Origin: Burkholderiaceae bacterium
Lineage (GTDB): Bacteria > Pseudomonadota > Gammaproteobacteria > Burkholderiales > Burkholderiaceae_C
Assembly (NCBI GenBank): GCA_026125795.1
Contig: JAHCKM010000002.1
Coordinates: forward strand, 310,001-374,000
Reading direction: 5' to 3'
Length of the DNA: 64,000 nucleotides
The position numbers and the translations under genes were made by a program. Shown here one piece after another: positions 11,691 through 47,778 of the stretch. A model generated the notes under the pieces. That model was not told the DNA's origin, did not search any database, and was given only the letters and a program-made list of their open reading frames with translations. Numbering within the stretch: the stretch's first letter is position 1; every line of letters begins with the position of its first letter.

Positions 11691-11702
11691 TGACACAGTG
11701 TC
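11691..11702 (+). promoter_or_regulatory. GACACAGTGT motif (copy 1 of 3), proposed activator site
   Basis: TGACACAGTGTC is an imperfect palindrome with one central base. Its core GACACAGTGT (11692-11701) is identical to copies at 27938 and 47709. All three lie 54-56 bases before a sigma-54-type promoter. Proposed as the upstream activating site of the sigma-54 activator at 19469-21469. Confidence 0.5.
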
Positions 11703-11747
11703 CTCAGGCCGGGACAGTCGCAGCGCGGTCAGCGCCGATGGGCGCAG

Positions 11748-11763
11748 GGGAACGGGCCTTGCT
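11748..11763 (+). promoter_or_regulatory. candidate sigma-54 promoter upstream of the beta-RFAP synthase/mtdB/mch genes
   Basis: GGGAAC-N5-TTGCT aligns with TGGCAC-N5-TTGCW, with the GG and GC doublets exactly 10 bases apart. The predicted start of transcription is near 11774, 31 bases before the ATG at 11805. The -24 half is weaker than at the fhc promoter. Confidence 0.5.
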
Positions 11764-11804
11764 TGCAGCGCCGGCATGCTGCCGAATGCCCGGCCCGTGC
11801 CGCC

Positions 11805-12827
11805 ATGTCTGCCGTAGTGCCGCCCGTTGCGCGCGCCGAGGCCAGGGCCGCCGTCGGCGTGTGCGCCGCGGGCCGGCTGCACCTGGGGTTTCTCGATCCA
11901 TCGGGCACCCTGGGGCGGCGCTTCGGCGGCGTCGGCCTGACGGTGGACGGCTTCCAGACCGAGGTCGTGATCGCCTCGTCGGCGCGCGACGAGTGGCACG
12001 CCGACTCGCCCGCCGCGCTGGCGCAGCTCGATCGCGCAGCGGCCCATGTGCAGTGCCTGCGCCAGCGCTGCGGTCGCAGCGCGCCGCTGGCGCTGCGGCT
12101 GCGCAGCGTGCTGCCGGCCCATGCCGGGCTGGGCTCCGGCACGCAGCTGGCGCTGGCGGTCGGCCGCGCGTTCGCGCGCTGGCAGGGCCTGGAGATCGGC
12201 ACGCCCACTTTGGCCGCGTGGCTCGGCCGCGGCCTGCGCTCGGGCATCGGCATCGCCGGCTTCGATCAAGGCGGCCTGCTGGTCGATGGCGGGCCCGGTC
12301 CCGACGGCGTGCCGGCCCCGCTGCTGGCGCGCATTCCGGTGCCGTCGGCGTGGCGCATCGTGGTCGTGCTCGACACGCGGCTGCAGGGCCTGTCGGGCGC
12401 GCGCGAGGTCAAGGCGATCGCCGCGCTGCCGGCGTTGCGGCTGGCGCAGGCGGCCGAGCTGTGCCACCAAGTGCTGATGCGCGTGTTGCCGGGCGTGGCC
12501 GGCGACGAGTTCGCGCCGTTTGCCGCCGGCATCAATCGCATGCAGGAACTGCTCGGTGCGCACTTCGCGCCGGCGCAGGGCGGCGGCGCGTGGACCAGCG
12601 CCGGCGTGGGACGCCTGCTGCAGTGGGTGCGCGACCACGCCGATGACTCCGCCGCGGTGGGCCAGAGCTCGTGGGGCCCCACCGGCTTTGCGATCGTGCC
12701 GTCGGCCGCGGCCGCGCACCGGCTGCTCGACGCCGCGCGTGCCGCCGGCGTGATCGATCCGGCGCTGCAGCTGCGCACCGTGGCACCGCGCAACCGCGGC
12801 GCCACGGTGAACACCGGCGCAGGCTGA
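11805..12827 (+). CDS. beta-ribofuranosylaminobenzene 5'-phosphate (beta-RFAP) synthase, GHMP-kinase fold
   Basis: 340 residues from the ATG at 11805 (MSAVVPPVARAEA). RLHLGFLDPSG and the GHMP-kinase phosphate loop LPAHAGLGSGTQLALAVGRAF (near residues 104-124) are typical of beta-RFAP synthase. This enzyme condenses 4-hydroxybenzoate or p-aminobenzoate with phosphoribosyl pyrophosphate in the first committed step of methanopterin synthesis; it corresponds to orf4 of methylotroph H4MPT clusters. It is the first gene of a tight operon with mtdB, ATP-grasp, mch and RimK-like genes, behind a probable sigma-54 promoter. Confidence 0.88.
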   Translation: MSAVVPPVARAEARAAVGVCAAGRLHLGFLDPSGTLGRRFGGVGLTVDGFQTEVVIASSARDEWHADSPAALAQLDRAAAHVQCLRQRCGRSAPLALRLRSVLPAHAGLGSGTQLALAVGRAFARWQGLEIGTPTLAAWLGRGLRSGIGIAGFDQGGLLVDGGPGPDGVPAPLLARIPVPSAWRIVVVLDTRLQGLSGAREVKAIAALPALRLAQAAELCHQVLMRVLPGVAGDEFAPFAAGINRMQELLGAHFAPAQGGGAWTSAGVGRLLQWVRDHADDSAAVGQSSWGPTGFAIVPSAAAAHRLLDAARAAGVIDPALQLRTVAPRNRGATVNTGAG

Positions 12828-12861
12828 GCCGCCGTCACCCACGCCTGACAACACACACGCG

Positions 12862-13779
12862 ATGGAACGCCCCTACATCCTGCACATGTTCACGCCGGGC
12901 AAGCAGATGAGCCCGTTCGACATCAACATGGCGGCCGATGCCGGCTACCAGATCATCGTGCCGTACGCCGACGCGGGTCTCGACGCGATCACCGGGCTGA
13001 CGCAGGACACCATCTTCTCGCGCGGCCCCAAGGGCGTGACACGCACCGGCATCTTCATCGGCGGGCGCGATGCGCTGCTGGCCGCCGACATGCTCGAGCG
13101 TGCCCGGTCGGCCATGGTCAAGCCGTTCGTCGTCTCGCTGCTGTGCGACCCGAGCGGTGCCTACACCACCGCGGCCGCCATGGTGGCCTGCGTCGAGGCG
13201 GCGCTGCAGCGCACGCACCCGGGCGGCCTGGCCGGCCGGCGCGTGGTGGTGTTCGGCGGCACCGGCCCGGTGGGCCGCATCGCCGCCGTGCTGGCCGCAT
13301 CGGCCGGTGCGCAGGTGCAGGTCTCGAGCCGCAGCGGCGTTGAGGCGGCACAGCGCGCCGCCGACGAAACCGGGCGACGCTTCGGCGTCACGCTGCAAGG
13401 CGCGTCGGGGCGCGACGGCGCGGCGCTGCGCGCATCGCTGGCCGCGGCCGACGTGGCGCTCGGCTGTGCGGCGGCCGGCGTGCAGGTGCTGTCGGCCGAT
13501 GATCTGGCCGCGGCGCCTCGGTTGCTGGTGGCGGCCGACGTCAACGCCGTGCCGCCCGCTGGTATCGCCGGTGTCGGCGTGATGGACGACGCCAAGCCGA
13601 TCGCCGGCTTGTCGGCGCTGGGCATCGGCGCGCTCGCAATCGGCAACGTCAAGTACCAGACGCAGCACCGTCTGCTGCAGCAGATGCGCGCGGCCGAGAA
13701 GGCCGTCGTGCTCGGCTTCGTCGAGGCGCTGGCCACCGCGCGCGCGGTGGTGGCCGAAGCCACGGCCAAGGGCAACTGA
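12862..13779 (+). CDS. mtdB: NAD(P)-dependent methylene-H4MPT dehydrogenase
   Basis: 305 residues. The N-terminus (MERPYILHMFTPGKQMSPFDINMAADAGYQIIVPYA) is characteristic of MtdB, and the Rossmann nucleotide loop is VVVFGGTGPVGRIAAVLAA (near residues 128-146). It oxidises methylene-H4MPT to methenyl-H4MPT in the cytosol, between Fae and Mch. The gene lies 34 bases after the beta-RFAP synthase gene and is followed by an ATP-grasp gene and mch, an order known from other methylotrophs. Confidence 0.95.
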   Translation: MERPYILHMFTPGKQMSPFDINMAADAGYQIIVPYADAGLDAITGLTQDTIFSRGPKGVTRTGIFIGGRDALLAADMLERARSAMVKPFVVSLLCDPSGAYTTAAAMVACVEAALQRTHPGGLAGRRVVVFGGTGPVGRIAAVLAASAGAQVQVSSRSGVEAAQRAADETGRRFGVTLQGASGRDGAALRASLAAADVALGCAAAGVQVLSADDLAAAPRLLVAADVNAVPPAGIAGVGVMDDAKPIAGLSALGIGALAIGNVKYQTQHRLLQQMRAAEKAVVLGFVEALATARAVVAEATAKGN

Positions 13780-13804
13780 CCTCGCGCAACCGATCTCACG
13801 CATC

Positions 13805-14923
13805 GTGCTCGCCGTTGCCGCGCTGTCCGCTCGGGCCCTCGTCGAGAGCGCGGCGCGTGACGGCCTGCGCTGCGTGGCGCTCGACGTGTTTGGCGATGCC
13901 GACACGCGCCGCGCCGCGGCCCATTGGCTGCCGATCGGCGAGCCCGCCGCGCTGCGCATCGACGGCGATCGCCTGCTGCGCGCGCTGCGCACGCTGGCGG
14001 CCGAGCACGACGTCACCGGCTGGATCGCCGGCAGCGGATTCGAGGCCGAGCCCGAGCTGCTGGAAGCCGGCGGCTCCTGCCTGCCGCTGCTGGGCACGGC
14101 GGGCAGCGACGTGCGCCGCGTGCGCGACCCGGTGGCCTTCTTCCACTTTCTGCGCAGCCACGGCATTGCGCACCCGCCGGTGGCTTTCGCGCCGCCGCGC
14201 ACGCCGGGCCCGTGGCTGCACAAGGACAGCGGTGGATGCGGCGGCTGGCACGTGCGGCGCAGCGCCGACGAGCCGCCGGGCCGCGGCGGCTACTGGCAGA
14301 TCGAGCGCGCCGGCGCGCCGATGTCGGCGACCTTCGTCGCCAACGGCCACGATGCGGTGGTGCTGGGCTTCAATCGGCAACTGGTGCGAGCCGTCGGCGC
14401 GCGGCCGTTCGTGTTTGCCGGCGTCATCGGACCGCTGGCGGTCGACGACGCGCTGCAACGCTCGATCGGCGAGGCGGTGCGCCGGCTGGCGCGCGAGTTC
14501 CGCGTGTTCGGCCTGGCCAGCCTCGACTTCGTGCTGCACGGCGACGCGGCCGAGGTGATCGAGCTCAATCCGCGTCCGCCGGCCAGTCTGGCCCTTTACC
14601 CCAGAGTCGGTGGACACGGTGCGCTGCACGCGCACCGGCATGCCTGCGCCCGGGGCGTGCTGCCGCCGCCACCGGCCGCGGCACGCGAGGTGCACGGCCT
14701 GCAGATCGTGTTTGCGCCGCGTGCGCTGCAACTCGATCCCGCGGGCTCGGCGGCGATCGCGCGCTGGCCGGGTGCGCACGACCTGCCGGCCGCCGGCACC
14801 ACGTTCATGCCGGGCGATCCGCTCTGCAGCGTGTCGGCCAGCGGCGCCGATGCGGCGCAGGTGCAGGCGGCATTGGCGCAGGCCCACGACGGATTGCTGC
14901 GATCGCTGGAGGCCTTGGCATGA
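13805..14923 (+). CDS. ATP-grasp protein of the H4MPT/methylofuran cluster
   Basis: 372 residues from a GTG at 13805; no strong ribosome-binding site, so the start is uncertain. ATP-grasp features: LLGTAGSDVRRVRDPVAFFHFLRSHGI, WLHKDSGGCGGWHV (nucleotide-binding Lys/Gly region), FGLASLDFVLHGDAAEVIELNPRPPASL (metal-binding Asp/Glu/Asn). Position between mtdB and mch matches the gene called orfY in methylotroph literature. A ligase step in methylofuran or H4MPT side-chain assembly (for example an MfnD-like tyramine-glutamate ligase) is likely but not proven. The stop overlaps the mch start (ATGA). Confidence 0.8.
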   Translation: MLAVAALSARALVESAARDGLRCVALDVFGDADTRRAAAHWLPIGEPAALRIDGDRLLRALRTLAAEHDVTGWIAGSGFEAEPELLEAGGSCLPLLGTAGSDVRRVRDPVAFFHFLRSHGIAHPPVAFAPPRTPGPWLHKDSGGCGGWHVRRSADEPPGRGGYWQIERAGAPMSATFVANGHDAVVLGFNRQLVRAVGARPFVFAGVIGPLAVDDALQRSIGEAVRRLAREFRVFGLASLDFVLHGDAAEVIELNPRPPASLALYPRVGGHGALHAHRHACARGVLPPPPAAAREVHGLQIVFAPRALQLDPAGSAAIARWPGAHDLPAAGTTFMPGDPLCSVSASGADAAQVQAALAQAHDGLLRSLEALA

Positions 14924-15924
14924 GGCCACACCGGGCGGCCCTCGACGGCTGCCGCCTCAGCGTGAACCAGCACGTGGCGCCGTGGGTCGAGCGGCTGTGC
15001 GCACACGCCGATGCGTTGCGCGTGCACGTGCAGCGCGACGACAGCGGCGTGCGCGTGGTCGATGCCGGCATCGCCGCGCCGGGTGGCGTGGCCGCGGGCC
15101 TGCTGATCGGCGAGATCTGCATGGGCGGCTTCGGCCGCGTGACCCTGCGCAGTGGTGCGAGCGACGGTTGGCCGAGCGGGCTCGGGGTGCACAGCTCGCT
15201 GCCGGTGCTGGCCTGCCTGGCCAGCCAGTACGCCGGCTGGAGCCTCGCGGCCAGCAAGGAAGAGACCGGTGGCAAGAAGTTCTTCGCGCTCGGCTCCGGC
15301 CCGGTGCGTGCGCTCGCCCTCAAGGAGCCGCTGTTCGCCGAGCTGGGCTATCGCGATCACGCCGCGCAAGGTGTGCTGGTGCTCGAGGTCGACCGCGTGC
15401 CGCCGCCGGTGGTGCTGCACAAGGTGCTGCGCGACACCGGCCTGCCGCCCGAGGCACTGACGGTGGTGCTGACGCCGACCACCAGCGCCGCCGGCACCAC
15501 GCAGGTGGTGGCGCGCGTGCTCGAGGTTGCGTTGCACAAGGCGCACGAGCTCGGCTTTGCCCTGGCCGACATCGTCGACGGTGCCGCCAGCGCGCCGCTG
15601 CCGGCGCCAAGCCCCGACGGCGTGCAGGCGATGGGACGCACCAACGACGCGATCCTGTACGGCGGCCGCGTGCACCTGAGCGTGCGCGGCAGCGACGACG
15701 CGGCGCAGCAGCTCGCGGCCAAGCTGCCCTCGATGAACTCGCGCGACTTCGGCCGCTCGTTTGCCTACGTCTTCAAGGACGTGGGATACGACTTCTACAA
15801 GATCGATCCCGCGCTGTTCGCGCCGGCCGAGGTGTGGGTCAGCAACCTCGACAGCGGCCGCACATGGCACGCCGGCATGGTCAACATGGATCTGCTGCGC
15901 GGCCTGTGGTTGGAAGAGGCCTGA
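14920..15924 (+). CDS. mch: methenyl-H4MPT cyclohydrolase
   Basis: 334 residues from the ATG at 14920, which overlaps the previous TGA (ATGA). Family hallmarks: SVNQHVAPWVERLCAHADAL at the N-terminus, GLLIGEICMGGFGRVTL, SSLPVLACLASQYAGWSLA, KKFFALGSGPVRALA, GRTNDAILYGGRVHL and SRDFGRSFAYVFKDVGYDFYKIDPALFAPAEVWVSN. Catalyses reversible hydrolysis of methenyl-H4MPT to formyl-H4MPT in the cytosol, the step between MtdB and the Fhc complex. Confidence 0.96.
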   Translation: MRPHRAALDGCRLSVNQHVAPWVERLCAHADALRVHVQRDDSGVRVVDAGIAAPGGVAAGLLIGEICMGGFGRVTLRSGASDGWPSGLGVHSSLPVLACLASQYAGWSLAASKEETGGKKFFALGSGPVRALALKEPLFAELGYRDHAAQGVLVLEVDRVPPPVVLHKVLRDTGLPPEALTVVLTPTTSAAGTTQVVARVLEVALHKAHELGFALADIVDGAASAPLPAPSPDGVQAMGRTNDAILYGGRVHLSVRGSDDAAQQLAAKLPSMNSRDFGRSFAYVFKDVGYDFYKIDPALFAPAEVWVSNLDSGRTWHAGMVNMDLLRGLWLEEA

Positions 15925-16859
15925 TGTTGCGCATCGCGATCATGGCCGACGAGACGGGCTGGCACACGCGCCAGCTGCAGGCCGCCCTGCGCGTGCGCGG
16001 CACCACGAGCCGTTGCATCGACCTGGCCGATTGCCGCATCGACACCACGGCCGCCAGACACGCGCTGGTGATGCCGGGCTTCGGCCGCGAGCTGCCCGAT
16101 GCGGTGCTGGTGCGCGGCATCGCCGGCGGCACGTTCGAGCAGGTGACGCGCCGGCTCGGCGTGCTGCATGCGCTGCGCGAGTTCGGCGTGCCGGTGTACA
16201 ACGATGCGCGCGCCATCGAGCGCAGCGTGGACAAGTCGATGACCAGCCTGCTGCTGCACGCGGCCGCCATCCCCACGCCGCCCACCTGGGCCATCGAGTC
16301 GGCGGTGGAGGCGCAACGCACGGTGATGCGCGAAAGCGCGGCCGGCCACGCGCTGGTGCTCAAGCCGTTGTTCGGCTCGCAGGGCAAGGGCTTGCAGCGC
16401 GTCGGCTTCGTCGACGGCACGCACCGCCCGTTGCCGCCGCTCGAGGCCGACTACGGCAAGGTGGCGTACCTGCAGCGCTTCGTGCCGCCGGTGACCACAC
16501 CGGGCTTCGATTGGCGCGTACTGGTGGTGGGCGGCCGCGCGCTCACCGCGATGCGCCGCATCAGCGAGCACTGGGTGCACAACGTGGCGCAAGGCGCGCG
16601 CTGCGTGGCGACGCCGCTCGATCCAGCGCTGGCGCGGCTGGCCGAAGACGCCGCGCGGGCGCTCGATCTCGACTACGCCGGCGTCGACATCCTGCCCACG
16701 GCCGACGCCGCGCAACCGATGCAGTTGATCGAGGTCAACGGCATCGCCGCCTGGGCCGGCCTGCAGCGCGTGACCGGCTTCAACATCGCGCGTGCGCTGG
16801 TGGACGATCTGCTCGACCGCAAGGTGGCCTATGCGCGGGATCGAGCACGTTACGCATAG
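15924..16859 (+). CDS. RimK-like ATP-grasp ligase of the H4MPT cluster
   Basis: 311 residues. The ATG (15924) overlaps the mch stop (TGATG). RimK-type ATP-grasp architecture: VLVRGIAGGTFEQVTRRLGVLHALREFGVPVYNDARAIERSVDK, then ALVLKPLFGSQGKGL (nucleotide-binding Lys and Gly-rich loop near residues 145-160), DWRVLVVGGRALTAMRRIS and LIEVNGIAAWAGLQRVTGFNIA. Comparable to the archaeal alpha-L-glutamate ligase MptN/CofF group; the probable role is adding an amino acid or other acid to the pterin cofactor side chain. It corresponds positionally to orf5 of other methylotrophs. Confidence 0.83.
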   Translation: MLRIAIMADETGWHTRQLQAALRVRGTTSRCIDLADCRIDTTAARHALVMPGFGRELPDAVLVRGIAGGTFEQVTRRLGVLHALREFGVPVYNDARAIERSVDKSMTSLLLHAAAIPTPPTWAIESAVEAQRTVMRESAAGHALVLKPLFGSQGKGLQRVGFVDGTHRPLPPLEADYGKVAYLQRFVPPVTTPGFDWRVLVVGGRALTAMRRISEHWVHNVAQGARCVATPLDPALARLAEDAARALDLDYAGVDILPTADAAQPMQLIEVNGIAAWAGLQRVTGFNIARALVDDLLDRKVAYARDRARYA

Positions 16860-16868
16860 AGCGGCGCG

Positions 16869-17238
16869 GCGCGACGGGCGGTACCCGGGGTGGGCTCCTA
16901 CTGGGTCGGTCGGCGCTGCGCGCCGACTTCGCTGCGGTGCTCGCCCAGCAAGGGCGGCTGCGATGCCGCTCGCAGCGGCCCTGAACGGGCCGCGCCTTGC
17001 AGGCCGCGCCGGGCCAACGGGCCCGGCCCCTCGCCAGGCACGAAGAGTCCACTGGACTCTTCGTGTCCGGGCTCGGCTTCATGGCTTCTCGCCGGTCCGT
17101 CGCCTGCGGCGCCGGACTTCCCCTTGCTGTTCTGCGCTCCTCGCCGCCCCACAAGTCGCCCACGCCGGATACCGCCCACCGCGCAGAGACGCTCGTTGTC
17201 TCTGCCGATGCACACCCGGCCGCGGCTTTGCCTCGCTC
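16869..17238 (+). repeat. MITE-like element, copy A (forward)
   Basis: Fills most of the 408-bp gap before the CitG-like gene. Left inverted repeat GGGCGGTACCCGGGGTGGGC (16876-16895) pairs with GCCCACGCCGGATACCGCCC (17158-17177). The conserved tail continues through ACCGCGCAGAGACGCTCGT to a GGCTTTGC end near 17238. Inside is a perfect hairpin centred on AGTCCACTGGACT (17039-17065, 13-bp arms). No credible protein is encoded. Homologous copies: 22214-22584, 35846-36132 (inverted) and 39690-40058. Confidence 0.8.
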
Positions 17239-17267
17239 CATCGTCGCAAGTCCGATCGACCACGCCA

Positions 17268-18116
17268 ATGAACAGCGCGACCACGCCACGCGACTGTTTC
17301 CTGCACGCCTGCGAGCTCGACGTGACGGTGCGCAAGCCGGGCAACGTGAGCGTGGCGTCGCCCGGGCATGGCATGCATGCGCAGCAGTTCATCGCCAGCG
17401 CGCAGGCGGCGGCAACGGCGCTGTTCGAGGCCGGCGCGCCGGTGGGCGAGCGCATCGAGCATGCGGTGGCGGCCACGCAGGCGGCCGTGGCGTGCAACAC
17501 CAACCTGGGCATCGTGTTGCTGATCGCGCCGCTGGCTGCGGCCGCCGAACGGCCCGGTGCGCTGCACGGTGCGACGGCGCTGCGTGAGTCGCTGCAAGCG
17601 GTGCTGGACGCGCTCGATGTCGCTGATGCGCGCGCGGCCTACCGCGCCATCGTGCGGGCCAACCCGGGTGGCCTGAGCCACGCCGATCAGGCCGACGTCC
17701 GCAGCGAGCCGCGGATCGGTCTGCGCGACGCGATGGCGCTGGCCGCACCGCGCGACCTGATCGCACGCCAGTACACCAATGGATTCGCCGATCTGTTCGA
17801 TGCGCTGGTTCGCGACCTGCCATCCGGGTTTGTACTGGCGCGGGCGACTGCAGCGCATGTGCAGCGCGTCTACCTCGGCTGGTTGAGCCGGCACCCCGAT
17901 TCACACATTGTTAGAAAACACGGCGAGGCCGTGGCACACACTGTCATGGCGGCGGCGCAGGGCTGGGCTGCGCATCCGGCACCGGATCGCGCACCGGCTC
18001 TTGCCGAATGGGACGACTCCCTGAAGGCCGCCGGGGTCAACCCGGGGACCAGCGCCGATCTGACCGTGGCCACGCTGTGGACCGCCGGCGTGCTGGCCAC
18101 GTGGCACGGATCGTGA
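17268..18116 (+). CDS. CitG/MdcB-family (triphosphoribosyl-dephospho-CoA synthase-like) protein
   Basis: 282 residues from the ATG at 17268. The CitG-family signature is visible: [22 protein letters not shown] near residue 12, [34 protein letters not shown] near 60-95, and a conserved [22 protein letters not shown] at the C-terminus. In methylotroph H4MPT islands this gene (orf7 position, between the RimK-like gene and fae) is thought to attach a ribosyl-phosphate group during H4MPT synthesis by analogy with CitG. Exact activity is unproven. Confidence 0.82.
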
Positions 18117-18158
18117 TTGCGATCACGGGAGCGCCGGACGCCGGAGCCCGGCGCCTCC
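18112..18158 (+). promoter_or_regulatory. inverted repeats in the fae leader region
   Basis: A perfect CGTGAT-TGCG-ATCACG repeat (18112-18127) overlaps the CitG-like stop codon. Immediately after it, GAGCGCCGG..CCGGCGCCTC (18131-18158) can form a GC-rich stem. Both lie in the 82 bp before fae. They could be an operator and/or a processing or terminator structure separating CitG-like and fae transcripts; no function is demonstrated. Confidence 0.4.
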
Positions 18159-18198
18159 ACACGGTTCTGCGAGAACACAGCAAGGAGATGACACAGCC

Positions 18199-18711
18199 AT
18201 GGCAAAGATCGATCGCATGTTGGTCGGTGAATCGCTGGTCGGTGAAGGCAACGAGGTTGCGCACATCGACCTGATCATCGGCCCGCGCGGGTCACCCGCC
18301 GAAACCGCGTTCGCCAACGCGCTCACCAACAACAAGGATGGTTTCACCTCGTTGTTGGCTGTGGTCGCGCCGAACCTGTTGACCAAGCCCGCCACGGTGA
18401 TGTTCAACAAAGTGACGATCAAGGGTGCGAAGCAGGCCGTGCAGATGTTCGGGCCGGCGCAGCGTGCCGTGGCCATGGCCGTGGCCGACAGCGTCGAAGA
18501 CGGCACGATCCCTGCCGCCGAGGCCGACAACCTGTTCGTCTGCGTCGGCGTGTTCATCCACTGGGAGGCCGCGGACGACAAGAAGATCCAGGACTACAAC
18601 TACCGCGCCACGCGTGAATCGATCCAGCGTGCGGTGAAGGGCGTGCCGACGGCCGCCGAGGTGGTGGCCAAGAAGGGCACCGTCACGCACCCGTTCCAGG
18701 CAGCAGCGTAG
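18199..18711 (+). CDS. fae: formaldehyde-activating enzyme
   Basis: 170 residues, the usual Fae length. [33 protein letters not shown] contains the catalytic His (His22), followed by [39 protein letters not shown] and [31 protein letters not shown]. Condenses formaldehyde with H4MPT to methylene-H4MPT in the cytosol; normally one of the most abundant methylotroph proteins. AAGGAG lies 11 bases before the ATG. A strong terminator follows (18784-18811), so fae can be a monocistronic, highly expressed unit. Confidence 0.98.
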
Positions 18712-18729: not shown

Positions 18730-18755
18730 GGCGCACACCGCGGTCGGTGTGCGCC
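18730..18755 (+). other. perfect 11-bp hairpin downstream of fae
   Basis: GGCGCACACCG-CGGT-CGGTGTGCGCC, 18 bases after the fae stop and before the terminator. With no T-run of its own it more likely protects the fae mRNA 3' end than terminates transcription. Confidence 0.6.
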
Positions 18756-18833: not shown

Positions 18834-19319
18834 TCAGCGCCTGCCCGGCACCATGCCGCTGCCGATCAGGTGCAGCACGGCCGCACCGCGTTGCGCGCCC
18901 GCGTCGCGCGCCTGGCGCTCGATCTGCACGCCCACGCTGCGCACATTGTCAAACTTGCAAGGCTTGACCACGCGCACACGCGCCCACGCGGCGCCGAACT
19001 CGTCGAGCAGGATGTCGGCGATGGCCTCGGCAAATGCCTCCAGCAGCTGCAGACGGTGCTCGCGCAGCAGCTGCTGAAGCCGCGCGTGTACGTGTGCGTA
19101 ATCAATGGTGTCGGCGATGCAGTCGGTGTCGCAGGCACGCGCTCGCGGCACGCCGGCCTGCAGGTCGATGACCAGCCGCTGCGGCGCATGCAGTTCGTCG
19201 TGGTTGATGCCGATCACGGTCTCGCCAGTGAAGCCCTCGATGAACACCAGGTCCAGCGCGGCGGCCGGCGTGCGATCGTGGGCCGGGTCCGCGTGGGCAA
19301 GCGGTTGGGCAGGGTTCAA
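18834..19319 (-). CDS. FolB-like dihydroneopterin aldolase
   Basis: About 161 residues. No ATG precedes the conserved region; the TTG at 19319 has GGAG 7 bases upstream and is my preferred start. FolB-type features: LDLVFIEGFTGETVIGINHDELHAPQRLVIDLQAGVP, DTIDYAHVHARLQQLL and LLEAFAEAIADILLDEF. FolB cleaves dihydroneopterin to a hydroxymethyl-pterin, the pterin precursor for H4MPT or folate. It is convergent with fae and divergent from the sigma-54 activator. Its position next to fae makes a methanopterin role likely. Confidence 0.83.
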   Translation of the reverse strand: MNPAQPLAHADPAHDRTPAAALDLVFIEGFTGETVIGINHDELHAPQRLVIDLQAGVPRARACDTDCIADTIDYAHVHARLQQLLREHRLQLLEAFAEAIADILLDEFGAAWARVRVVKPCKFDNVRSVGVQIERQARDAGAQRGAAVLHLIGSGMVPGRR

Positions 19320-19468: not shown

Positions 19469-21469
19469 ATGAGTCTGTCTGTGCGCGACGCCAACCACCA
19501 CGTCGATCGCATCCTGGATCTGGTGCGGCGGGGCCTGAGCGAGCACAACAGCAGCGACGTGGTGGCGCAATCGTGGACGCGCTGCCTCAACAAGTACAGC
19601 CTGCACCCGGCCGAGGCCTACAGCCCGTCGTTCGTGGCGCGTGTCGAGCTCGAGGAGCGCCGCGAGCGCTTGAACGATGTGATCGCCTGTGCGCGCTACG
19701 AGATGGCCACGCTGTATCAGCAGCTCGCCGATACCGAAACCGCGGTCGTGCTCACCGACCCCGACGGCGTGATCGTGCACGTGGTGTCTTCGCCGGAGTT
19801 CGCAGCCGAGGTGGGCCCGCTCGGGCTGCGCGTGGGCGGCATGTGGAGCGAGACCGCGGCGGGCACCAACGGCATGGGCACCTGCCTGGCCGCGGGCGGT
19901 CCGGTGTCGGTGCGGCGCGAAGACCACTTTTACGCGCTGTTCACGCAGCTCACCTGCTCGGCGGTGCCGGTGTACGACCCGTCGGGCGAGATCACCGCGG
20001 TGCTCGATGTCACCAGCCGCTCCAGCCTGATGCAGCAGCACCTGCTGGTGCTGCTGGGCATGACCGCGCGCATGATCGAGAACCGGCTGATCGACATGCG
20101 TTATCGCAATGCGCATCCGCTGCACTTTCACAGCCGCCCCGAGTTCGTGTACACGCTGCACGAGGGCAAGCTGGCGGTCGGCGAAGACGGCCGCGTGCTG
20201 GCGGCCAATCGCAGCGCGCTGTTCCAGCTCGGCCTGCAATCGGTGGCCGACATCCGCGCGCGGCGCATCGAAGACCTGTTCGAGACCTCGCTTGAAGACA
20301 TGCTCCAGCGCAGCACGTCGTCATCGTTCCATCCGGTGGTGACGTACCGCGCCAACGCGACACTGCGCTTCTTTGCCGTCGCGCGCCGGCCGGCCGCCAG
20401 TGCGGTGGCGACCCCGGTGGCAGCTGTCGCGACGGCGCCGCGCGCAACGCTGCGCCTGGTGTCGTCGCGCGGCAGCAGCGACGATGCGATCTTCAAGGAC
20501 CCGCGCCTCGCTGCGCGGCTCGAGACCGCGCGCCGCGTGATCGCGCGGCAGACGCCGGTGCTGTTGTGCGGCGAGACCGGATCGGGCAAGGAGGTGTTCG
20601 CGCGGGCGGTGCATGAGACGAGTCCGCACGCCAGCGGCGCATTCGTGGCGATCAACTGCGCCAGCCTGCCCGAGACGCTGATCGAGTCGGAGCTGTTCGG
20701 TTATCGCGCCGGCGCCTTCACCGGTGCGCAGCGCACCGGCCGGCGCGGCAAGATCCTGCAGGCCGATGGCGGCACGCTGTTTCTCGACGAGATCGCCGAC
20801 ATGCCGCTCGATCTGCAGGCACGCCTGTTGCGCGTGCTCGATGAGCGGCAGGTCACGCCGCTGGGCACCGAAGAGACGCATGCGGTCAACTTCCAGCTGA
20901 TCAGCGCCAGCCACCAGCACCTGCCGGGGCTGGTGCGCGAGGGCCGCTTCCGCGAGGACCTGTACTACCGCCTCGCGGGCATCGAGCTGCAGATCCCGCC
21001 GCTGCGCGAGCGCAGCGATTGCAGCGAGCTGATCGCGAGCGTGCTGGCCGCCGAAGGCGGCCCCAATGCCAAGCTCTCGCCCGAGGCGCAAGCGCTGCTG
21101 ATGGAGCATCCGTGGCCGGGCAACATCCGGCAGCTGCGCCACGTGCTGCGCACCGCCGCGGCGCTGGCCGACGGCAAGCCGATCACGCGTGAACACCTGC
21201 CCACGCTGCAGGCCGTGCTGGCGCCGGTGGCGCAGGCCACGGCAGCCGTGGCCGCCGTGGCGCCGCGCGTGCGGGCCGAGCCCGCGCCCGAGGCCGAGTT
21301 GCCGGTCAAGCTCAATCCGATCCAGGCCAACGAGCGGCAGGTGCTGCTGCGCCTGCTCGAACAACACCGCTGGAACGTGAGCAACGTGGCCAAGGCACTC
21401 GACGTCAGCCGCAACACGCTGTACCGCAAACTGCACAAGCTCCACATTGAAGTCTCCCACCCCGAGTGA
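19469..21469 (+). CDS. AcoR-like sigma-54-dependent transcriptional activator
   Basis: 666 residues from the ATG at 19469. An N-terminal GAF-type sensor region (about 1-210: LADTETAVVLTDPDGVIVHV, GTNGMGTCLAAGGPVSV) is followed by a PAS-like segment. The AAA+ domain has Walker A GETGSGKE near residue 368, the sigma-54-contacting GAFTGA loop near 414-420 and Walker B TLFLDEIADMP. A C-terminal Fis helix-turn-helix follows (NVSNVAKALDVSRNTLYRKLHKL). AcoR/FhlA-like enhancer-binding proteins drive sigma-54 promoters from palindromic upstream sites. Sigma-54 promoter matches precede the beta-RFAP synthase, fhcB and moxR genes, so this is the natural candidate activator of the C1 regulon. Confidence 0.9.
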   Translation: MSLSVRDANHHVDRILDLVRRGLSEHNSSDVVAQSWTRCLNKYSLHPAEAYSPSFVARVELEERRERLNDVIACARYEMATLYQQLADTETAVVLTDPDGVIVHVVSSPEFAAEVGPLGLRVGGMWSETAAGTNGMGTCLAAGGPVSVRREDHFYALFTQLTCSAVPVYDPSGEITAVLDVTSRSSLMQQHLLVLLGMTARMIENRLIDMRYRNAHPLHFHSRPEFVYTLHEGKLAVGEDGRVLAANRSALFQLGLQSVADIRARRIEDLFETSLEDMLQRSTSSSFHPVVTYRANATLRFFAVARRPAASAVATPVAAVATAPRATLRLVSSRGSSDDAIFKDPRLAARLETARRVIARQTPVLLCGETGSGKEVFARAVHETSPHASGAFVAINCASLPETLIESELFGYRAGAFTGAQRTGRRGKILQADGGTLFLDEIADMPLDLQARLLRVLDERQVTPLGTEETHAVNFQLISASHQHLPGLVREGRFREDLYYRLAGIELQIPPLRERSDCSELIASVLAAEGGPNAKLSPEAQALLMEHPWPGNIRQLRHVLRTAAALADGKPITREHLPTLQAVLAPVAQATAAVAAVAPRVRAEPAPEAELPVKLNPIQANERQVLLRLLEQHRWNVSNVAKALDVSRNTLYRKLHKLHIEVSHPE

Positions 21470-27867: not shown

Positions 27868-27937
27868 GCTTTCACGCCCGAGACCGCATCACGTTTCGTG
27901 CCATGGCCCCGGCGGGGGCCGGCACGGCCGGTTTTGC

Positions 27938-27947
27938 GACACAGTGT
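27938..27947 (+). promoter_or_regulatory. GACACAGTGT motif (copy 2 of 3), fhc promoter
   Basis: Identical 10-mer to 11692 and 47709, starting exactly 54 bases before the -24 box at 27992. A second half-palindromic pair TGTC..GACA (27956-27973) lies between. Proposed binding site for the sigma-54 activator. Confidence 0.6.
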
Positions 27948-27991
27948 GGCAATTCTGTCCTGATGACCTGACATTGCGGTTGCGCAGCGCG

Positions 27992-28007
27992 TGGCACATC
28001 GCTTGCG
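27992..28007 (+). promoter_or_regulatory. sigma-54 promoter of the fhc operon
   Basis: TGGCAC-ATCGC-TTGCG matches the -24/-12 consensus TGGCAC-N5-TTGCW at 10 of 11 fixed positions with exact spacing. Transcription would begin near 28018, two bases before the first ATG (28020), which argues for initiation at the next in-frame ATG (28041). Confidence 0.85.
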
Positions 28008-28040
28008 TCCGGCACGCCCATGAACGAGGCATCGCCGTCT

Positions 28041-31887: not shown

Positions 31888-32693
31888 CCGGCTGGACCTT
31901 GCGGCTGCGGCAGGCGCCGACGCTGCGTGTCGATCTGCGCGGCGTCACGCCGTCGGCGCTCGCGGCGATGCGCACGGCGGCGCTCGAACGCCTGCCGGTC
32001 GGTCACGGCAACCGCCTGCTGCCGCTGGCCGAGTTCTTCGGCGTCGCGCCGCGCAACGACGACAGCCTGGTGCTCGAAGGCGATCTCGCGCGCTGCGACC
32101 GCATCGGCTGGCAGATGGACGGCGGGCGTCTGATCGTCGACGGTGCGGCCGGCGACTACACCGGCGCGTGCATGACCGGCGGCGAGCTCACGGTGTGGGG
32201 CCATGCCGGCGCGCTGGCGGCGTGCGAGATGGCCGGCGGCACGTTGACCATCGAAGGCGATGCCGGCGACTTTGCCGCCGGCACCTTGCCCGGCAGCATG
32301 GACGGCATGCGCGGCGGAACCCTGGTGGTGCGCGGCCGCGCCGGCGCCCGGCTGGGCGACCGCATGCGGCGCGGCACCGTGGTGGTGTTCGGCGATGCCG
32401 GCGACTTCGCCGCGTCGCGGCTGGTGGCCGGCACGATCGCCATCGGCGGGCGTTGCGGCGCGCACGCGGGATACGCGATGCGTCGCGGCAGCGTGGTGTT
32501 CGCCGGCCCGGCGCCCACACCGCCACCGACCTTCGTGCCGGCTTTGGCCGACGCGCCGGTGTTCTGGCAGTTGCTGGCACGCGACCTGGCGCGCCACGGC
32601 GGCCCGTTTGGCGGCCTGCCGGCGCGCCGCATCGATCGGCACCTGGGCGACCTGGCGGTCGACGGCAAAGGCGAGTGGGTCCTGGTGCGCTGA
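31884..32693 (+). CDS. fhcC: formyltransferase/hydrolase complex subunit C
   Basis: 269 residues. GltS/FwdC-like right-handed beta-helix of GxxGxxxGxxMxxGxxxxxG repeats: DGAAGDYTGACMTGGELTVWGHAGALAACEMAGGTLTIEGDAGDFAAG, then three further turns to about residue 205. Structural scaffold of the Fhc complex joining the A/B and D subunits. Last gene of fhcBADC; a GC hairpin (32720-32738) follows before the convergent protease gene. Confidence 0.95.
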   Translation: MTGWTLRLRQAPTLRVDLRGVTPSALAAMRTAALERLPVGHGNRLLPLAEFFGVAPRNDDSLVLEGDLARCDRIGWQMDGGRLIVDGAAGDYTGACMTGGELTVWGHAGALAACEMAGGTLTIEGDAGDFAAGTLPGSMDGMRGGTLVVRGRAGARLGDRMRRGTVVVFGDAGDFAASRLVAGTIAIGGRCGAHAGYAMRRGSVVFAGPAPTPPPTFVPALADAPVFWQLLARDLARHGGPFGGLPARRIDRHLGDLAVDGKGEWVLVR

Positions 32694-33528: not shown

Positions 33529-34158
33529 CTAAATCTGGATCAGCCCCCACTGCAGCGCCACCAGCGTGAGTTCCGACTGGTTGCTGGCGCCGAGTTTCTG
33601 CTTCACGTGGTACAGGTGGGTGCCCACCGTGCTGGGCGAGAGCTTCAGGTTCTCGGCAATCTGCGCCACGCTCTGACCGCGCGCGAGCTGGATGAAGACC
33701 GAGAACTCGCGCTCGCTCAGGCTCTGGGCCGGGCTGGTGTCGCCCTTGACCTGTGCCATGGCCAGGCGCTGGGCGGTCTGGCTGTCGACATAGGCCTGGT
33801 GCGCCGCGACCGCGCTCACCGCGGCGATCAGCGCATCGGGCGCGCTGCGCTTGGTGAGGTAGCCCAGCGCGCCGGCGCGCAGCACACGCTGCGGATGCGC
33901 GGTGTCTTCGTGCGCCGACAGCGCCAGGATGCGCGCCTTGGGATCCTGCGCCAGCAGCCGGCGCACCGCCTCGAGGCCGCCCATGCCGGGCATCGACAGG
34001 TCCATCACCACCACGTCGGGCTTGACGCGCGCGTATTCGGCGCAGGCCTGCTCGCCGTCGTCGAACTCGGCCACCACGTCGACCTGCGCGTCGGCCAGCA
34101 GCATGCGAAAGCCCATGCGCACCAGCGCATGGTCGTCGACCAGCATCACGCGAATCAC
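33529..34158 (-). CDS. NarL/LuxR-family response regulator
   Basis: 209 residues from a GTG (34158) that has GAAGGA 6 bases upstream; a further GTG at 34188 overlaps the kinase stop. Receiver domain with Asp8/Asp9 and phospho-acceptor Asp53 (VVVMDLSMPGMGG), Lys in YLTKRSA. C-terminal LuxR helix-turn-helix (SLSEREFSVFIQLARGQSVAQIAENLKLSPSTVGTHLYHVKQKL). It forms an operon with the upstream histidine kinase. FlhR/MoxX-type regulators of this class control methanol and formaldehyde genes in other methylotrophs, which suits its place between fhc and pqq. Confidence 0.9.
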   Translation of the reverse strand: MIRVMLVDDHALVRMGFRMLLADAQVDVVAEFDDGEQACAEYARVKPDVVVMDLSMPGMGGLEAVRRLLAQDPKARILALSAHEDTAHPQRVLRAGALGYLTKRSAPDALIAAVSAVAAHQAYVDSQTAQRLAMAQVKGDTSPAQSLSEREFSVFIQLARGQSVAQIAENLKLSPSTVGTHLYHVKQKLGASNQSELTLVALQWGLIQI

Positions 34159-34180
34159 GCGTGTTCCTTCGTCTGGCCGC

Positions 34181-35545
34181 TCATGCACTCACCGCCGGCG
34201 CGGCTGCCAGCGGCACGCTCACGCGCAGGCTCACGCCGCGCGGCGTCGCATTGTGCAGCTGCACGCTGCCGTTCAAGCCTTGCACGCGCTCCTCGAGCCA
34301 GCGCAAGCCGTAGTGGCCGCTGCGCGGCGTGCCGTCGGCCGGCAGGCCGCGGCCGTCGTCGCGCAACTCCAGCTCGACGCGGCCCGCCTGTGTGGCCACG
34401 CTGAGGGCGAGCCGCTGCGCCTGCCCATGGGCCAGCGCATTGGTGATGCCTTCCTGCGCGGCGCGGTACAGCGCCAGCGCGGTCTCGTTGGGCAGCGCAG
34501 CACCGGCCAGATCGATCTTCAGGTCCACCACGACGCCGGAGTGGTTGCGCCGCGTGCGTTCGGCCAGGTCGTCGAGCGCTTCGGCCAGCCCGAAGCTGTC
34601 GAGCACCAGCGGTGTCAGGCGCGGGATGATGCCGTGCATTGCGTCGTACAAGCGCGACGATTCCTCGGCGATCAGGCGCGCCGCCTGCGCGTTGTGCGGA
34701 TCCTTGGACGCGAGCCGCTGGGCGATCGACAGCGCCACGCTGCGCATTGCGATCACCGACTGGCCAAGCTCGTCGTGCAACTCGCGCGCGATCAGGTGCC
34801 GCTCCTGCTCCACATGCTGGTCGATCCAGCGCGACAGCTCGCGGCTGTCGGAGAGCTGGGTCTCGGCGCGCACCGCGCGGCGCTCGGTCTCGATGTGGTT
34901 CTGCAGCTCGCCCACCATGCGGTTGAACGCCGCGCCGATCGCCGCTGCCTCGCGCCCCGGCAACGCCGGCAGCGCGGTGTCGAAGCGGCCGCCTTGCATG
35001 CGGTTGAGCGCGTCGACGATCTGCCCGAACGGCCGCACGGTGCGGCCCACCTGCCAGAACACCAGCGCGCTGACCAGCACCAGCAGCAGCGCCGAGCCCA
35101 CCACGAGCTGCAGCAGGTTGTCCCAGGCGTCGAGCACCGCGCGCGACGCGTTGGCGCGCACCACCAGCTTGCCATCAGGGAACTCGATCGACTGCACCGA
35201 GGCCTGCGGCGAGATCAGCGACTCGAACCACTCGGGCGCGTCGCGGCCCGACTTGTACGGCGAGGGCGGCGAGCGGTACAGCTCCGCGCCGCCGGCATCG
35301 AGCAGCGTGATCTCGTTGGAACGCACCCGGCCCACGCCCTGCAGAAAAGCCTGCATCGCCTGCGTGCCCTGCGCCGCATGCAGCCAGGCGGTGCGGTTGA
35401 GCAACTGCGCGGCCACGCGGTTGGCAGCCACCGTCTCTTCGGCCACCGAGTCGCGCATGTTGGTCAGCTGCAGCGACACGACGGCGGCCACGAACAGCAG
35501 CGTCAACGCGGCGACGATGAGGTTGATCTTGAGTCGCAGGGTCAT
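34181..35545 (-). CDS. membrane sensor histidine kinase (HisKA_3/NarX-UhpB type)
   Basis: 454 residues from the ATG at 35545 (MTLRLKINLIVAALTLLFVAAVVSL). Two membrane segments (residues 8-27 and about 150-172) bracket a periplasmic sensor of about 120 residues. Then come a HAMP domain (VGRTVRPFGQIVDALNRMQ), the phospho-acceptor box ERHLIARELHDELGQSVIAMRSV and an ATPase with N-box (GITNALAHGQ) and G-box (LRDDGRGLPADG). Partner of the NarL-type regulator directly downstream. A stimulus such as methanol, formaldehyde or a metal is plausible from context (FlhS/MoxY-like) but not shown. Confidence 0.9.
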   Translation of the reverse strand: MTLRLKINLIVAALTLLFVAAVVSLQLTNMRDSVAEETVAANRVAAQLLNRTAWLHAAQGTQAMQAFLQGVGRVRSNEITLLDAGGAELYRSPPSPYKSGRDAPEWFESLISPQASVQSIEFPDGKLVVRANASRAVLDAWDNLLQLVVGSALLLVLVSALVFWQVGRTVRPFGQIVDALNRMQGGRFDTALPALPGREAAAIGAAFNRMVGELQNHIETERRAVRAETQLSDSRELSRWIDQHVEQERHLIARELHDELGQSVIAMRSVALSIAQRLASKDPHNAQAARLIAEESSRLYDAMHGIIPRLTPLVLDSFGLAEALDDLAERTRRNHSGVVVDLKIDLAGAALPNETALALYRAAQEGITNALAHGQAQRLALSVATQAGRVELELRDDGRGLPADGTPRSGHYGLRWLEERVQGLNGSVQLHNATPRGVSLRVSVPLAAAPAVSA

Positions 35546-35845
35546 GTCATTGCTGCATTGCGCCTCGCGTGTTCCGCGTCCCATGAGATGCGGTCGAGAC
35601 CGAGCGAGCAAAGCCGCGGCCGGGTGTGCGCCGGCGCTCGGCTGCGGCAGCCCCTCGCTGCGCGAGGGGTCCCCTGCGGTACTCAGACTCACGGCCCGCG
35701 TCGAAACTCCCTCCGCTCACTTCGTTCGCTATGGTCGAACAGTCGACGCGAGTCAGAAGTTGAAGCGCGCGATGCGCGCGCGCGGCCGCGAGTCTTCCGT
35801 TCCTCGGCGCCGCAGATGTCGCTACCGGCGCACACCCGACCCCGG
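35546..35845. other. repeat-rich intergenic DNA upstream of the kinase gene
   Basis: About 300 bp with no gene. It contains small palindromes (CCCCTCG-CTGCG-CGAGGGG near 35651-35668, TCGAACAGTCGA near 35733) and a GGCTTTGC-type end shared with the MITE-like family. The kinase promoter should be here but cannot be picked out. Confidence 0.4.
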
Positions 35846-45502: not shown

Positions 45503-45576
45503 CGTTGGGACTTCCTCGTAAGAAAAAGGGGGACGGGGCCCGACGGCACCATCCCCCGTTGCTGCTTTCCGGTTCT
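45503..45576 (-). other. xoxF-xoxG intergenic hairpin region
   Basis: Contains ACGGGG..CCCCGT (45526-45552) within a GGGGGA..TCCCCC context that can fold into a GC stem. As in many dehydrogenase operons this could stabilise the xoxF message or partly terminate before xoxG, giving more XoxF than cytochrome. Inference only. Confidence 0.45.
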
Positions 45577-47397
45577 TCAGTTGGGCAACGTGAAGACGGT
45601 CAGCGAGCCACCGAGTTCGGTGTACTGATTCAGCTCGCGATAGCCGCCCACGGCGCCCAGGCCGTCGGTGTCCTTCTCCAGGCCGGCCGCCATGCCGATG
45701 CCGGCCCAGCCGCCGATGCCGGAGAACACGCCGATGTACTGCTTGCCCTTGTGCTCGTACGAGAACACGTTGCCGATGATCCCCGAGGGCGTCTTGAACT
45801 TGAACAGTTCCTTGGTGATGTCCTTCTTGTCCACGCACTTCAGGTAACCCTCGAGCGTGCCGTAGCAGCTCAGGCCGCCCGCTGTGTTGAGCGAGCCGCT
45901 CCACACCGAGAACTTCTCGGGCTTGCTCTGCACGATCTTGCCGGTGCCGGCGTTCCAGGTGATGAAGTTGCCCATGCCGCCGTGGCTTCCCGGCGCCGGG
46001 AACATCGACAGCGTGGCGCCCACGTACGGCTGGCCCGCGGTGTACTCCACCTTGAACGGCTCGTAGTCCATGCAGACGTGGTTGGTCGGCACGTAGAACA
46101 GCTTGGTTTCGGGGTCGTACGACGCCGGCTGCTGGTCCTTGGTGCCCAACGCCGCCGGGCAGACGCCCTTGGTGTTGACGTCAGGACCGTTCTTCGCCGT
46201 GCTGTACTTGGCCACCACCTGCGGCCGGCCGGTCTTCATGTCGACGTGCGTCGCCCAGTTGACCTTGGGGTCGTACTTCTCGGCCACCAGCAGCGCGCCG
46301 GTGACGCGGTCCATTGTGTAGGCGAAGCCGTTGCGGTCAAAGTGCACCAGCGCCTTGGTCGGCTTGCCCTTGACGTCGATGTCGGCCAGGATCATCTCGT
46401 TGACGCCGTCGAAGTCCCACTCGTCGAACGGGGTCATCTGGTACACCCACTTGGCCATGCCGGTGTCGACGTCACGCGCGAAGATGGTCATCGACCACTT
46501 GTTGTCGCCGGGGCGCTGCGCCGGGTTCCAGGTGCTGGGGTTGCCGGTGCCGTAGTACATCAGGTTCAACGCCTTGTCGTAGCTGTACCAGCCCCAGGTG
46601 GTGCCGCCGCCGATCTTCCACTGGTCGCCCTTCCAGGTCTTGAGCGACGAGTCCTTGCCCACCGGCTTCATCGCGCCGTCGGTCCAGGTCATGGTCTTCT
46701 GGGGGTCGATCAGCATCTCGTTGTCGGGGCCGACGCTGTAGCCCTTCCAGGCCAGCTTGCCGTCGGACAGGTTGTACGCCGCGATGAAGCCGCGCACGCC
46801 CCACTCGCCGCCCGAGATGCCGGTGATCACCTTGTCCTTGAAGATATGCGGCGCATTGGTGTTGACGGCACCCAGCTTGGGATCGCCGTTCTTCACGTCC
46901 CAGATCTTCTTGCCGGTCTGCGCGTCGAGCGCCACCAGCATGCTGTCGGCCTGCTGCAGGATCACCTTGCCCTCGGCATAGGCCAGCCCGCGGTTGACGG
47001 TGTCGCAGCACATCTGCGGGATCACCGCCGGATCCTGCTTGGGCTCGTACTTCCACTTGATCTTCTGCGTGTCGAGGTCGATCGCAAAGACCTTGTTGGG
47101 GAACGGCGAGTGCAGGTACATCGTGCCGTCGATCACCAGCGGCGAACCTTCGTGGCCGCGCAGCACGCCGGTGGAGAAGGTCCACGCCACCTGCATCTTG
47201 CCGACGTTGCTCGTGTTGATCTGGTTCAGCTTGCTGTAGCGCTGGTTGTACATGTCGCCAGCCTGCATCGCCCAGTTCTTCTCGTTGGCGACGTTTTTCT
47301 CCACGTCGGCGTTGGCCAGCGCCGCACCGGGCGCCACCACGATGGCCAGCCCCAGGCGCAACCACGCGGGGCTTTGGAAGTGCCTTGAAAGTCGCAT
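45577..47397 (-). CDS. xoxF: lanthanide-dependent methanol dehydrogenase XoxF
   Basis: 606 residues from the ATG at 47397, with AAGGAGACA upstream; signal peptide to [13 protein letters not shown] beta-propeller dehydrogenase with the adjacent Cys pair QMCCDTV (130-131) of methanol dehydrogenases and many W-docking motifs. The active-site segment is [13 protein letters not shown]: catalytic Asp328 followed two residues later by Asp330. MxaF has Ala at that second position; Asp there is the accepted hallmark of lanthanide (XoxF) enzymes. Periplasmic; oxidises methanol and passes electrons to XoxG. First gene of a nine-gene operon. Confidence 0.98.
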
Positions 47398-47708
47398 CGA
47401 TGTCTCCTTGTTGAATGACCGCAGTCCGATCGCGCGGTGACAACCGCACCAAGTGCCTCGCGACCCGGGGCTCGGTGAGGGCCGAACCGCAAGTTCTGCG
47501 CCTGCCGTTGGCGGCATGCCGCGAGCGCCTTCGACGCAAGCTGCGCCGCAGCGACGCGCAGCCCAGTGCGGCGCCGCGTGGCGGCGCTCCGGCTAGGGAT
47601 CGCACGGATAGGGAAAGTACCGGCCGAAAGCCGCTGAGCGGGCCGCTTCTGCCAGCGGCGGCGGCGCCGCTTTGACAAGGTGCGCCGATTCCGTGTCAAT
47701 CACTTCGC

Positions 47709-47718
47709 GACACAGTGT
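47709..47718 (+). promoter_or_regulatory. GACACAGTGT motif (copy 3 of 3), moxR promoter
   Basis: Same 10-mer as at 11692 and 27938; its first base is 54 bases upstream of the -24 box, identical to the fhc arrangement. Confidence 0.6.
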
Positions 47719-47762
47719 TTCACCGCCTCGCGGCGTGGCGGCACGCGGTGACGCGCCCGAAT

Positions 47763-47778
47763 CGGCTCGGCTCTTGCA
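47763..47778 (+). promoter_or_regulatory. sigma-54 promoter of the moxR-mxaSACKL operon
   Basis: CGGCTC-GGCTC-TTGCA: GG and GC doublets are 10 bases apart and the -12 half is perfect. Predicted start near 47789 leaves a 26-base leader with an AGGA site before the moxR ATG (47815). Confidence 0.75.

Follow-up and report, generated by a model that had tools for sequence, protein, structure and literature searches.

A probable sigma-54 regulon of one-carbon genes in Burkholderiaceae and its candidate AcoR/DhaR-type activator

The one-carbon island and its shared sites

The window analysed here is a stretch of 64,000 nucleotides from a Burkholderiaceae bacterium (assembly GCA_026125795.1, contig JAHCKM010000002.1, positions 310,001 to 374,000), and it carries an island of one-carbon (C1) genes: a tetrahydromethanopterin (H4MPT) operon, the fhcBADC operon, and the divergent genes xoxF and moxR, the latter leading a moxR-mxa run. 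A palindromic site stands before -24/-12 elements of the sigma-54 (RpoN) type at these operons, and the island also encodes a candidate activator of sigma-54 polymerase. Comparison with relatives makes it very likely that these parts belong to a conserved C1 regulon run by one AcoR/DhaR-type activator—a regulon that is probably real and apparently undescribed. The features on which this proposal is built are as follows.

11692-11702, + strand: palindrome GACACAGTGTC before the beta-RFAP synthase operon; matrix score 18.3; conserved in relatives
11713-11716, + strand: second half-site GACA in the beta-RFAP promoter, 21 bp from the first
11748-11762, + strand: sigma-54 -24/-12 element GGGAACGGGCCTTGC before beta-RFAP synthase; predicted start near 11774
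11805-18711, + strand: co-directional H4MPT run (beta-RFAP synthase, mtdB, ATP-grasp protein, mch, mptN-like, citG-like, fae)
19469-21469, + strand: candidate activator, a bacterial enhancer-binding protein (bEBP) with GAF and DhaR-like second module, AAA+ domain with GAFTGA, and Fis-type helix-turn-helix (HTH)
27938-27948, + strand: palindrome GACACAGTGTG before fhcBADC; matrix score 18.4
27992-28006, + strand: perfect sigma-54 element TGGCACATCGCTTGC before fhcB; predicted start near 28018
28020-32693, + strand: fhcB, fhcA, fhcD and fhcC, the last assigned by position and a GXGXG match
45577-47397, - strand: xoxF, lanthanide-type methanol dehydrogenase; best PDB matches 6dam and 6oc5 (XoxF)
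47489-47503, - strand: sigma-54-like element AGGCGCAGAACTTGC before xoxF, in the same interval as the elements of relatives
47709-47719, + strand: palindrome GACACAGTGTT between the divergent xoxF and moxR; matrix score 20.2
47763-47777, + strand: sigma-54-like element CGGCTCGGCTCTTGC before moxR; predicted start near 47789
47815-48837, + strand: moxR, first gene of the moxR-mxa run, with AAA_3 and AAA lid domains; a DUF58 protein is next

A sequence-only reading of this DNA had singled out the 10-mer GACACAGTGT, placed 56, 54 and 54 bases before the elements at 11748, 27992 and 47763, and re-measurement returns the same distances. The 10-mer lies on the + strand at 11692, 27938 and 47709, with no further copy on either strand of the window, where its chance expectation is 0.07 (mean of 100 dinucleotide shuffles, none of which reaches three). 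The whole genome (G000; 6,568,748 bases in 6 contigs) holds four copies, three of them in the window; no GG-N9-TGC element follows the fourth, at C2:1205069, at a distance of 35-60 bases. When the genome is scanned for site plus promoter, as that reading had proposed, the looser pattern ACACNGTGT followed 35-60 bases on by GG-N9-TGC gives 15 matches (reversed control 4), among which only the three window sites keep the central A. That three copies fell near C1 genes by chance, as the reading had denied, is scarcely credible: the 10-mer was chosen after the fact and one genome copy does lie elsewhere, but the shuffles, the genome count and, as set out below, conservation in relatives, phasing and a 400-kb background all oppose it.

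The identical 10-mer was rejected as the unit of the site, which is instead a degenerate palindrome, GACA-N3-TGTC, of which the 10-mer is one form; in the site alignment, the rule by which sites were selected partly dictates the letters of the palindrome and of TTGC. A site matrix was trained on the fhcB and beta-RFAP sites of 79 loci, so that scores at those two promoters are partly circular, while moxR, xoxF, fae, the 400-kb background and other families lie outside its training. Four sites in the window score at least 16 bits, namely the three palindromes and one before fae. By comparison, 20 stretches of this genome from outside the window, 400 kb in total, contain 3 sites of at least 11 bits, none of at least 16 and no site-promoter pair. 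Of 61 distinct beta-RFAP promoter sites, 21 have the second half-site GACA at +21; other offsets, the site itself aside, never rise above 2.

Sigma-54 promoters were recognised by an invariant GG and GC, 10 bases apart, within TGGCAC-N5-TTGC, and all three window elements have them. Each is present where it had been reported; however, only 27992 is perfect, and 11748 and 47763 carry two mismatches each while retaining GG, GC and TTGC. Matches with up to two mismatches barely exceed expectation in the window (119 versus about 101), and these two elements are therefore unconvincing alone; comparison with relatives backs 11748, which is conserved, and 47763 in part. A second, better element near moxR (TGGCGCTGCCGTTGC at 47779) lies 70 bases from the site, and 47763 is favoured over it because of helical phase and the element form in relatives.

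Site, promoter and spacing in relatives

Among 299 genomes of the family, 34 contain fhcB. TGGCAC-N5-TTGC with at most one mismatch occurs at 26 of 30 fhcB loci (two of the 30 regions, whose upstream sequence is absent, were skipped), mostly together with a GACACnGTGTC-like palindrome. The beta-RFAP promoter of relatives has the consistent variant GGAAC-N5-TTGC, the type to which the window element at 11748 also belongs, and most of these loci have the fhcB-type palindrome too. Searching with the activator protein yielded 79 loci, drawn from the best 80 of 145 relatives and including Piscinibacter, Rhizobacter, Rubrivivax, Variovorax, Leptothrix, Sphaerotilus, Azohydromonas, Ideonella, Ramlibacter and Advenella. 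In these loci, the pair of palindrome and promoter precedes beta-RFAP synthase in 47/64 and fhcB in 35/44, and the reversed sequence gives no pair in 1.6 Mb. When family genomes and activator loci are pooled, with some overlap of species, an element with at most one mismatch is found in 64 of 72 fhcB regions (0.7 in shuffles), and one with at most two in 69/72 fhcB and 77/93 beta-RFAP regions (shuffle mean 2 for each set).

The pattern is also specific. The sequence-only reading had named many genome hits unrelated to C1 genes as an observation that would count against a regulon; in the 34 whole fhcB-bearing genomes, ACACWGTGT-N44..74-GG-N8-TTGC has 22 matches (reversed control 3), and all 22 precede C1 genes. 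Twenty are at fhcB or beta-RFAP synthase, and the other two are at moxR of this genome and, in genome G275, within about 365 bp before xoxF, out of phase. A plasmid of Azoarcus sp. KH32C carries an island in which the genes are similarly ordered; its beta-RFAP synthase has a site of 23.9 bits placed 67 bp ahead of a TGGCCCGGAGCTTGC element, and its xoxF is preceded by a perfect sigma-54 element. In that strain (locus L287, 8142-8456), a formate dehydrogenase operon diverges from the beta-RFAP operon, and the beta-RFAP site, lying between the two, might serve both.

Spacing in relatives proceeds in steps of about 11 bp, that is, it is phased to one face of the helix. Distances from palindrome to -24 cluster at 54-56, 64-69, 75-80, 86-89, 98-102 and 107-111 bp, with stragglers at 33, 39, 43, 62, 116, 124 and longer. 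After 4 of 46 points outside 20-130 bp had been dropped and the remainder reduced to 37 distinct gene-genus-spacing values, phase concentration was R = 0.75 at 11.35 bp (0.73 at 11.0); none of 5000 jittered sets was as strong, their maximum being 0.56. Two promoters of one genome often differ by roughly whole turns, as in G201 (78 versus 54) and G060 (56 versus 87). The constant spacing claimed earlier holds for the three window promoters, at 54-56 bp, but a fixed distance was rejected for relatives, which mostly range from 43 to 116 bp. The site had also been called nearer to the promoter than is typical of enhancers: its centre is about 75 bp before the predicted start, toward the promoter-proximal limit of the relatives' range of about -64 to -137.

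Phased spacing is what short-range contact of a bound activator with polymerase demands, and it bears on the view that the palindrome is the operator of an ordinary sigma-70 regulator and that the -24/-12 matches are coincidental. Two of the three window elements do stand at two mismatches, a level common by chance, and the MoxYX-like two-component pair of the island (33529-35692) is an alternative candidate for C1 regulator. The elements of relatives, however, lie far above shuffles and are phased to the site, which coincidence could not achieve; an operator of this sort is thus very improbable.

The candidate activator

The product of 19469-21469 has the domains that define a bEBP: AAA+ sigma-54 (PF00158, 212 bits), Fis-type HTH (PF02954) and GAF (PF01590), with GAFTGA and the Walker A motif GETGSGKE. 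The AcoR-like sigma-54 activator that had been read from the sequence is therefore present. A model of its sensor half (residues 1-344; mean predicted local distance difference test score, pLDDT, 87.7) has a DhaR-like fold, with DhaR(N) as the best PDB match (4lrx/4lry/4lrz; E 1e-14 to 1e-15; 17-18% identity). The DhaR profile NF008485 aligns to residues 30-669, but at 269 bits versus an equivalog cut-off of 551, and DhaR proper was rejected as its identity. The sensor-half model gave no ligand, nor did conserved cysteines and histidines single one out.

Full-length orthologs are 62-82% identical and paralogs at most 47%. An ortholog occurs in 31 of the 299 family genomes, 30 of which also have fhcB; the fhcB genomes G133 and G104 have split or partial copies of the activator. 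Genome G005 (estimated 100% complete) has fhcB and lacks the ortholog, its best relative being only 40% identical; its highest matrix scores are -1.6 and -2.3, with a sigma-54 element at neither promoter. A metagenome-assembled genome labelled Desulfovibrionaceae (L197, WRJY01000338.1) has a 70%-identical activator and is perhaps misbinned.

The same association is seen in other families of the order. A sigma-54 element precedes fhcB in 9 of 11 genomes with the ortholog versus 1 of 22 without, and sites of at least 11 bits occur in 5 of 11 versus none of 22 (Fisher p about 1e-5 for the comparison of genomes with and without the ortholog, among relatives that are not independent). The line between ortholog and paralog was placed in an E-value gap, 1e-168 to 1e-141, and drawn after the gap had been seen; split copies in G465 and G355 were counted as present, and G468 was left out (contig edge). 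The exception among the 22, G370 (87% complete), is a congener of G324, in which the ortholog and a nearly identical element are both present.

Paralogues at 33-47% identity exist in many genomes, including this one, and one of them, encoded elsewhere in the genome, could in principle bind the palindrome at genuine sites and sigma-54 promoters while the island protein regulates otherwise. It is, however, the island protein that is co-inherited with sites and promoters, and no second enhancer-binding protein was recognised among the scanned proteins of the window; we regard a paralogous binder as unlikely. Autoregulation of the activator by read-through from the beta-RFAP operon was dropped because a minus-strand gene separates fae from the activator; moreover, a site lies upstream of the activator in only 6 of 77 loci.

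18834-19319, - strand: folB, between fae and the activator

Reach of the regulon and its place among known systems

Its predicted targets can be graded. The beta-RFAP synthase...fae H4MPT operon and fhcBADC are firm, judged on sequence comparison, whereas the third operon proposed by the sequence-only reading, moxR-mxa, has a weakly conserved site, and the divergent xoxF faces the same intergenic region. The palindrome at 47709 lies 54 bp from the moxR element and 216 bp from that of xoxF. Before xoxF, a sigma-54-like element with at most two mismatches is found at -135 to -85 in 17 of 30 regions, the window included (0.35 in shuffles); sites of at least 11 bits are present in 11 of the 30 regions, against 0 in the reversed control; ten of them precede the element by 128-268 bp and the eleventh by 44 bp, and no evident phase was seen in these 11 distances. 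At moxR, 5 of 30 regions have an element with at most two mismatches and 12 of 30 one with at most three (shuffles 1.75), and 8 of 30 upstream regions have a site of at least 11 bits (reversed control 0). That site is upstream of the element by 54 bp in the window and by 76 and 44 bp elsewhere; in 7 of 30 regions the palindrome is instead 54-66 bp downstream, four of the seven being low-scoring. A conserved moxR site with the geometry of the window was therefore rejected, as relatives show other geometries. Given the counts of elements and sites and the distances at both genes, the third site of the window probably acts over a long range on xoxF and over a short one on moxR, with xoxF a likely member of the regulon and moxR-mxa a probable one in this genome.

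The gene fae, in the H4MPT run, may use an unusual promoter; three features are relevant here.

17935-17945, + strand: palindrome 264 bp ahead of fae, in the 3'-terminal part of the citG-like gene; matrix score 17.6
18102-18117, + strand: TGGCACGGATCGTGAT, sigma-54-like with a non-canonical -12, conserved before fae
27888-27903, - strand: TGGCACGAAACGTGAT element in reverse orientation next to the fhcB enhancer, seen in 14 of 44 loci

The palindrome before fae scores at least 11 in 58 of 65 loci, at 258-341 bp among the matches listed. Across its region, 50 loci picked by motif encode 24 different peptides, so that the palindrome persists across differing protein sequences; because the 50 were chosen by that motif, its letters are bound to be constant there, and 58/65 is the informative count. 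In 54 of 61 loci, TGGCA[CT]-N5-GTG[AT]T stands some 90 bp ahead of fae, and the 79 loci hold 73 copies (54 before fae, 19 elsewhere) against none reversed and 2 in the 400-kb background. The reversed element at fhcB is 54-55, 65-66, 77 or 99 bp from the palindrome in 12 of 14 loci, and 45 bp in the window. The fae element could represent either a sigma-54 promoter whose -12 is unusual or an operator of another kind. An extended scheme—in which one activator would run the whole methanol-to-CO2 module (xoxF, mox, H4MPT, fhc and fae) through phased short-range enhancers, fae having a second class of sigma-54-type promoter (TGGCAY-N5-GTGAT) and an enhancer located within the final coding part of the preceding gene—is offered tentatively and is rather doubtful. 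Directly after fae, an inverted repeat seen by eye (GGCGCACACC...GGTGTGCGCC, 18730-18755) is a possible terminator or processing hairpin.

Several observations weigh against the regulon as proposed. The moxR element is weak, and its site is absent or displaced in most relatives. Genome G074 (400 contigs) has the activator with no fhcB found, G101 (420 contigs, 93% complete) has fhcB with site and promoter with no activator found, and G378 and G328 of the other families carry the ortholog without a recognisable sigma-54 element. No element was found in 16 of the 93 beta-RFAP regions, and 21 further palindrome-promoter pairs lie elsewhere in 16 of the 79 loci. The exact 10-mer with a loose promoter occurs at 22 places in the 299 family genomes, 3 here and 6 at fhcB or beta-RFAP of relatives; the remaining 13, inspected in part, are elsewhere, at about the level of the reversed control (9). 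The relatives cannot be treated as independent, there is overlap between the two genome sets, and the thresholds were chosen in the course of the analysis. Set beside these points, conservation, genome-wide specificity and the co-inheritance of site, promoter and activator lend computational support to the reading first suggested from the window, namely C1 operons under sigma-54 that share an activator site and are run by the AcoR-like protein of the island.

We infer that the island protein is the binder of the palindrome and that RpoN transcribes the operons, and the signal is inferred likewise. The GAF-sensing activator of AcoR/DhaR type (19469-21469) would bind GACA-N3-TGTC as a dimer, with the second half-site 21 bp away taking part at the H4MPT operon. 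Once bound, it would contact sigma-54 polymerase held at the -24/-12 promoter 54-56 bp on, on a fixed face of the DNA, and the GAFTGA loop and ATP hydrolysis would open the promoter when the sensor reads a C1 signal, perhaps methanol or formaldehyde.

The remainder of the window adds genes and repeats around these operons. The H4MPT run has an order similar to that in Azoarcus sp. KH32C; its mtdB has a weak NCBIfam match and is named from gene order and from an Azoarcus gene annotated as methylene-H4MPT dehydrogenase. An in-frame ATG at 28041 is the likelier start of fhcB. The longest xoxF frame (45577-47517) probably starts 40 codons too early, and the start was re-read to 47397, which AAGGAG precedes and with which the known length fits better. 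Beyond the activator, the island encodes an AfpA/DmrB-like flavoprotein, DUF6513 and DUF447 proteins, 4-HFC-P synthase and an MfnE-like kinase; it also holds pqqBCE, SoxYZ-like carriers and a MoxJ-like protein, with von Willebrand-type genes behind moxR. An Rfam scan of the window gave nothing at gathering scores. Further features are the following.

33529-35692: MoxYX-like two-component pair, another candidate C1 regulator
56310-63982: 17 imperfect 101-nt repeats with small open reading frames between them, resembling the cassette (attC) array of a chromosomal integron
59176-59279: perfect 52-nt tandem duplication within the cassette array

To our knowledge, the switching-on of tetrahydromethanopterin formaldehyde oxidation in bacteria is poorly understood. 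The present analysis supplies a candidate activator, a predicted binding site, promoters with predicted starts and a falsifiable phasing rule of about 11 bp, and the relatives with the island include genera having cultured strains (Variovorax, Rubrivivax, Rhizobacter and Piscinibacter). If the proposal is true, lanthanide methanol dehydrogenase and formaldehyde oxidation would be under one sigma-54 switch, with a candidate sensor protein for C1 compounds. No report of sigma-54 control of H4MPT or fhc genes was found in the literature searched, which is weak evidence, subscription papers being mostly beyond reach. Such control is not reported in the available portions of a Methyloversatilis expression study (PMC5023235) and a formaldehyde review (PMC8879981); those of a Methylosinus sporium start-site study describe an RpoN motif at nitrogen genes (PMC12403871), and those of a Paraburkholderia phymatum paper, two fhc genes up in nodules (PMC5748707).

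Among known activators, DhaR, which activates dihydroxyacetone kinase genes, resembles the island protein in the fold of its sensor half and in a profile that aligns over most of its length; it differs in that the structural match is of low identity and the island protein falls below the family cut-off. AcoR and BmoR share the GAF/AAA+/Fis architecture of the island activator, a likeness by description only, and their known targets differ, being acetoin genes for AcoR or alkane/alcohol genes, whereas here they are C1 genes. BmoR responds to alcohols and acts at a sigma-54 promoter, according to the available part of one source (PMC6366067). The MmoR proteins of Methylocella and Methyloferula have a GAF domain, as stated in the accessible part of PMC5874634. 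MmoR is also a sigma-54 activator whose gene lies in a C1 cluster with -24/-12 promoters, as here; however, the two are likened by description only, and the targets of MmoR are the soluble methane monooxygenase (sMMO) genes of methanotrophs, whereas those proposed here are the genes for H4MPT, fhc and methanol dehydrogenase.

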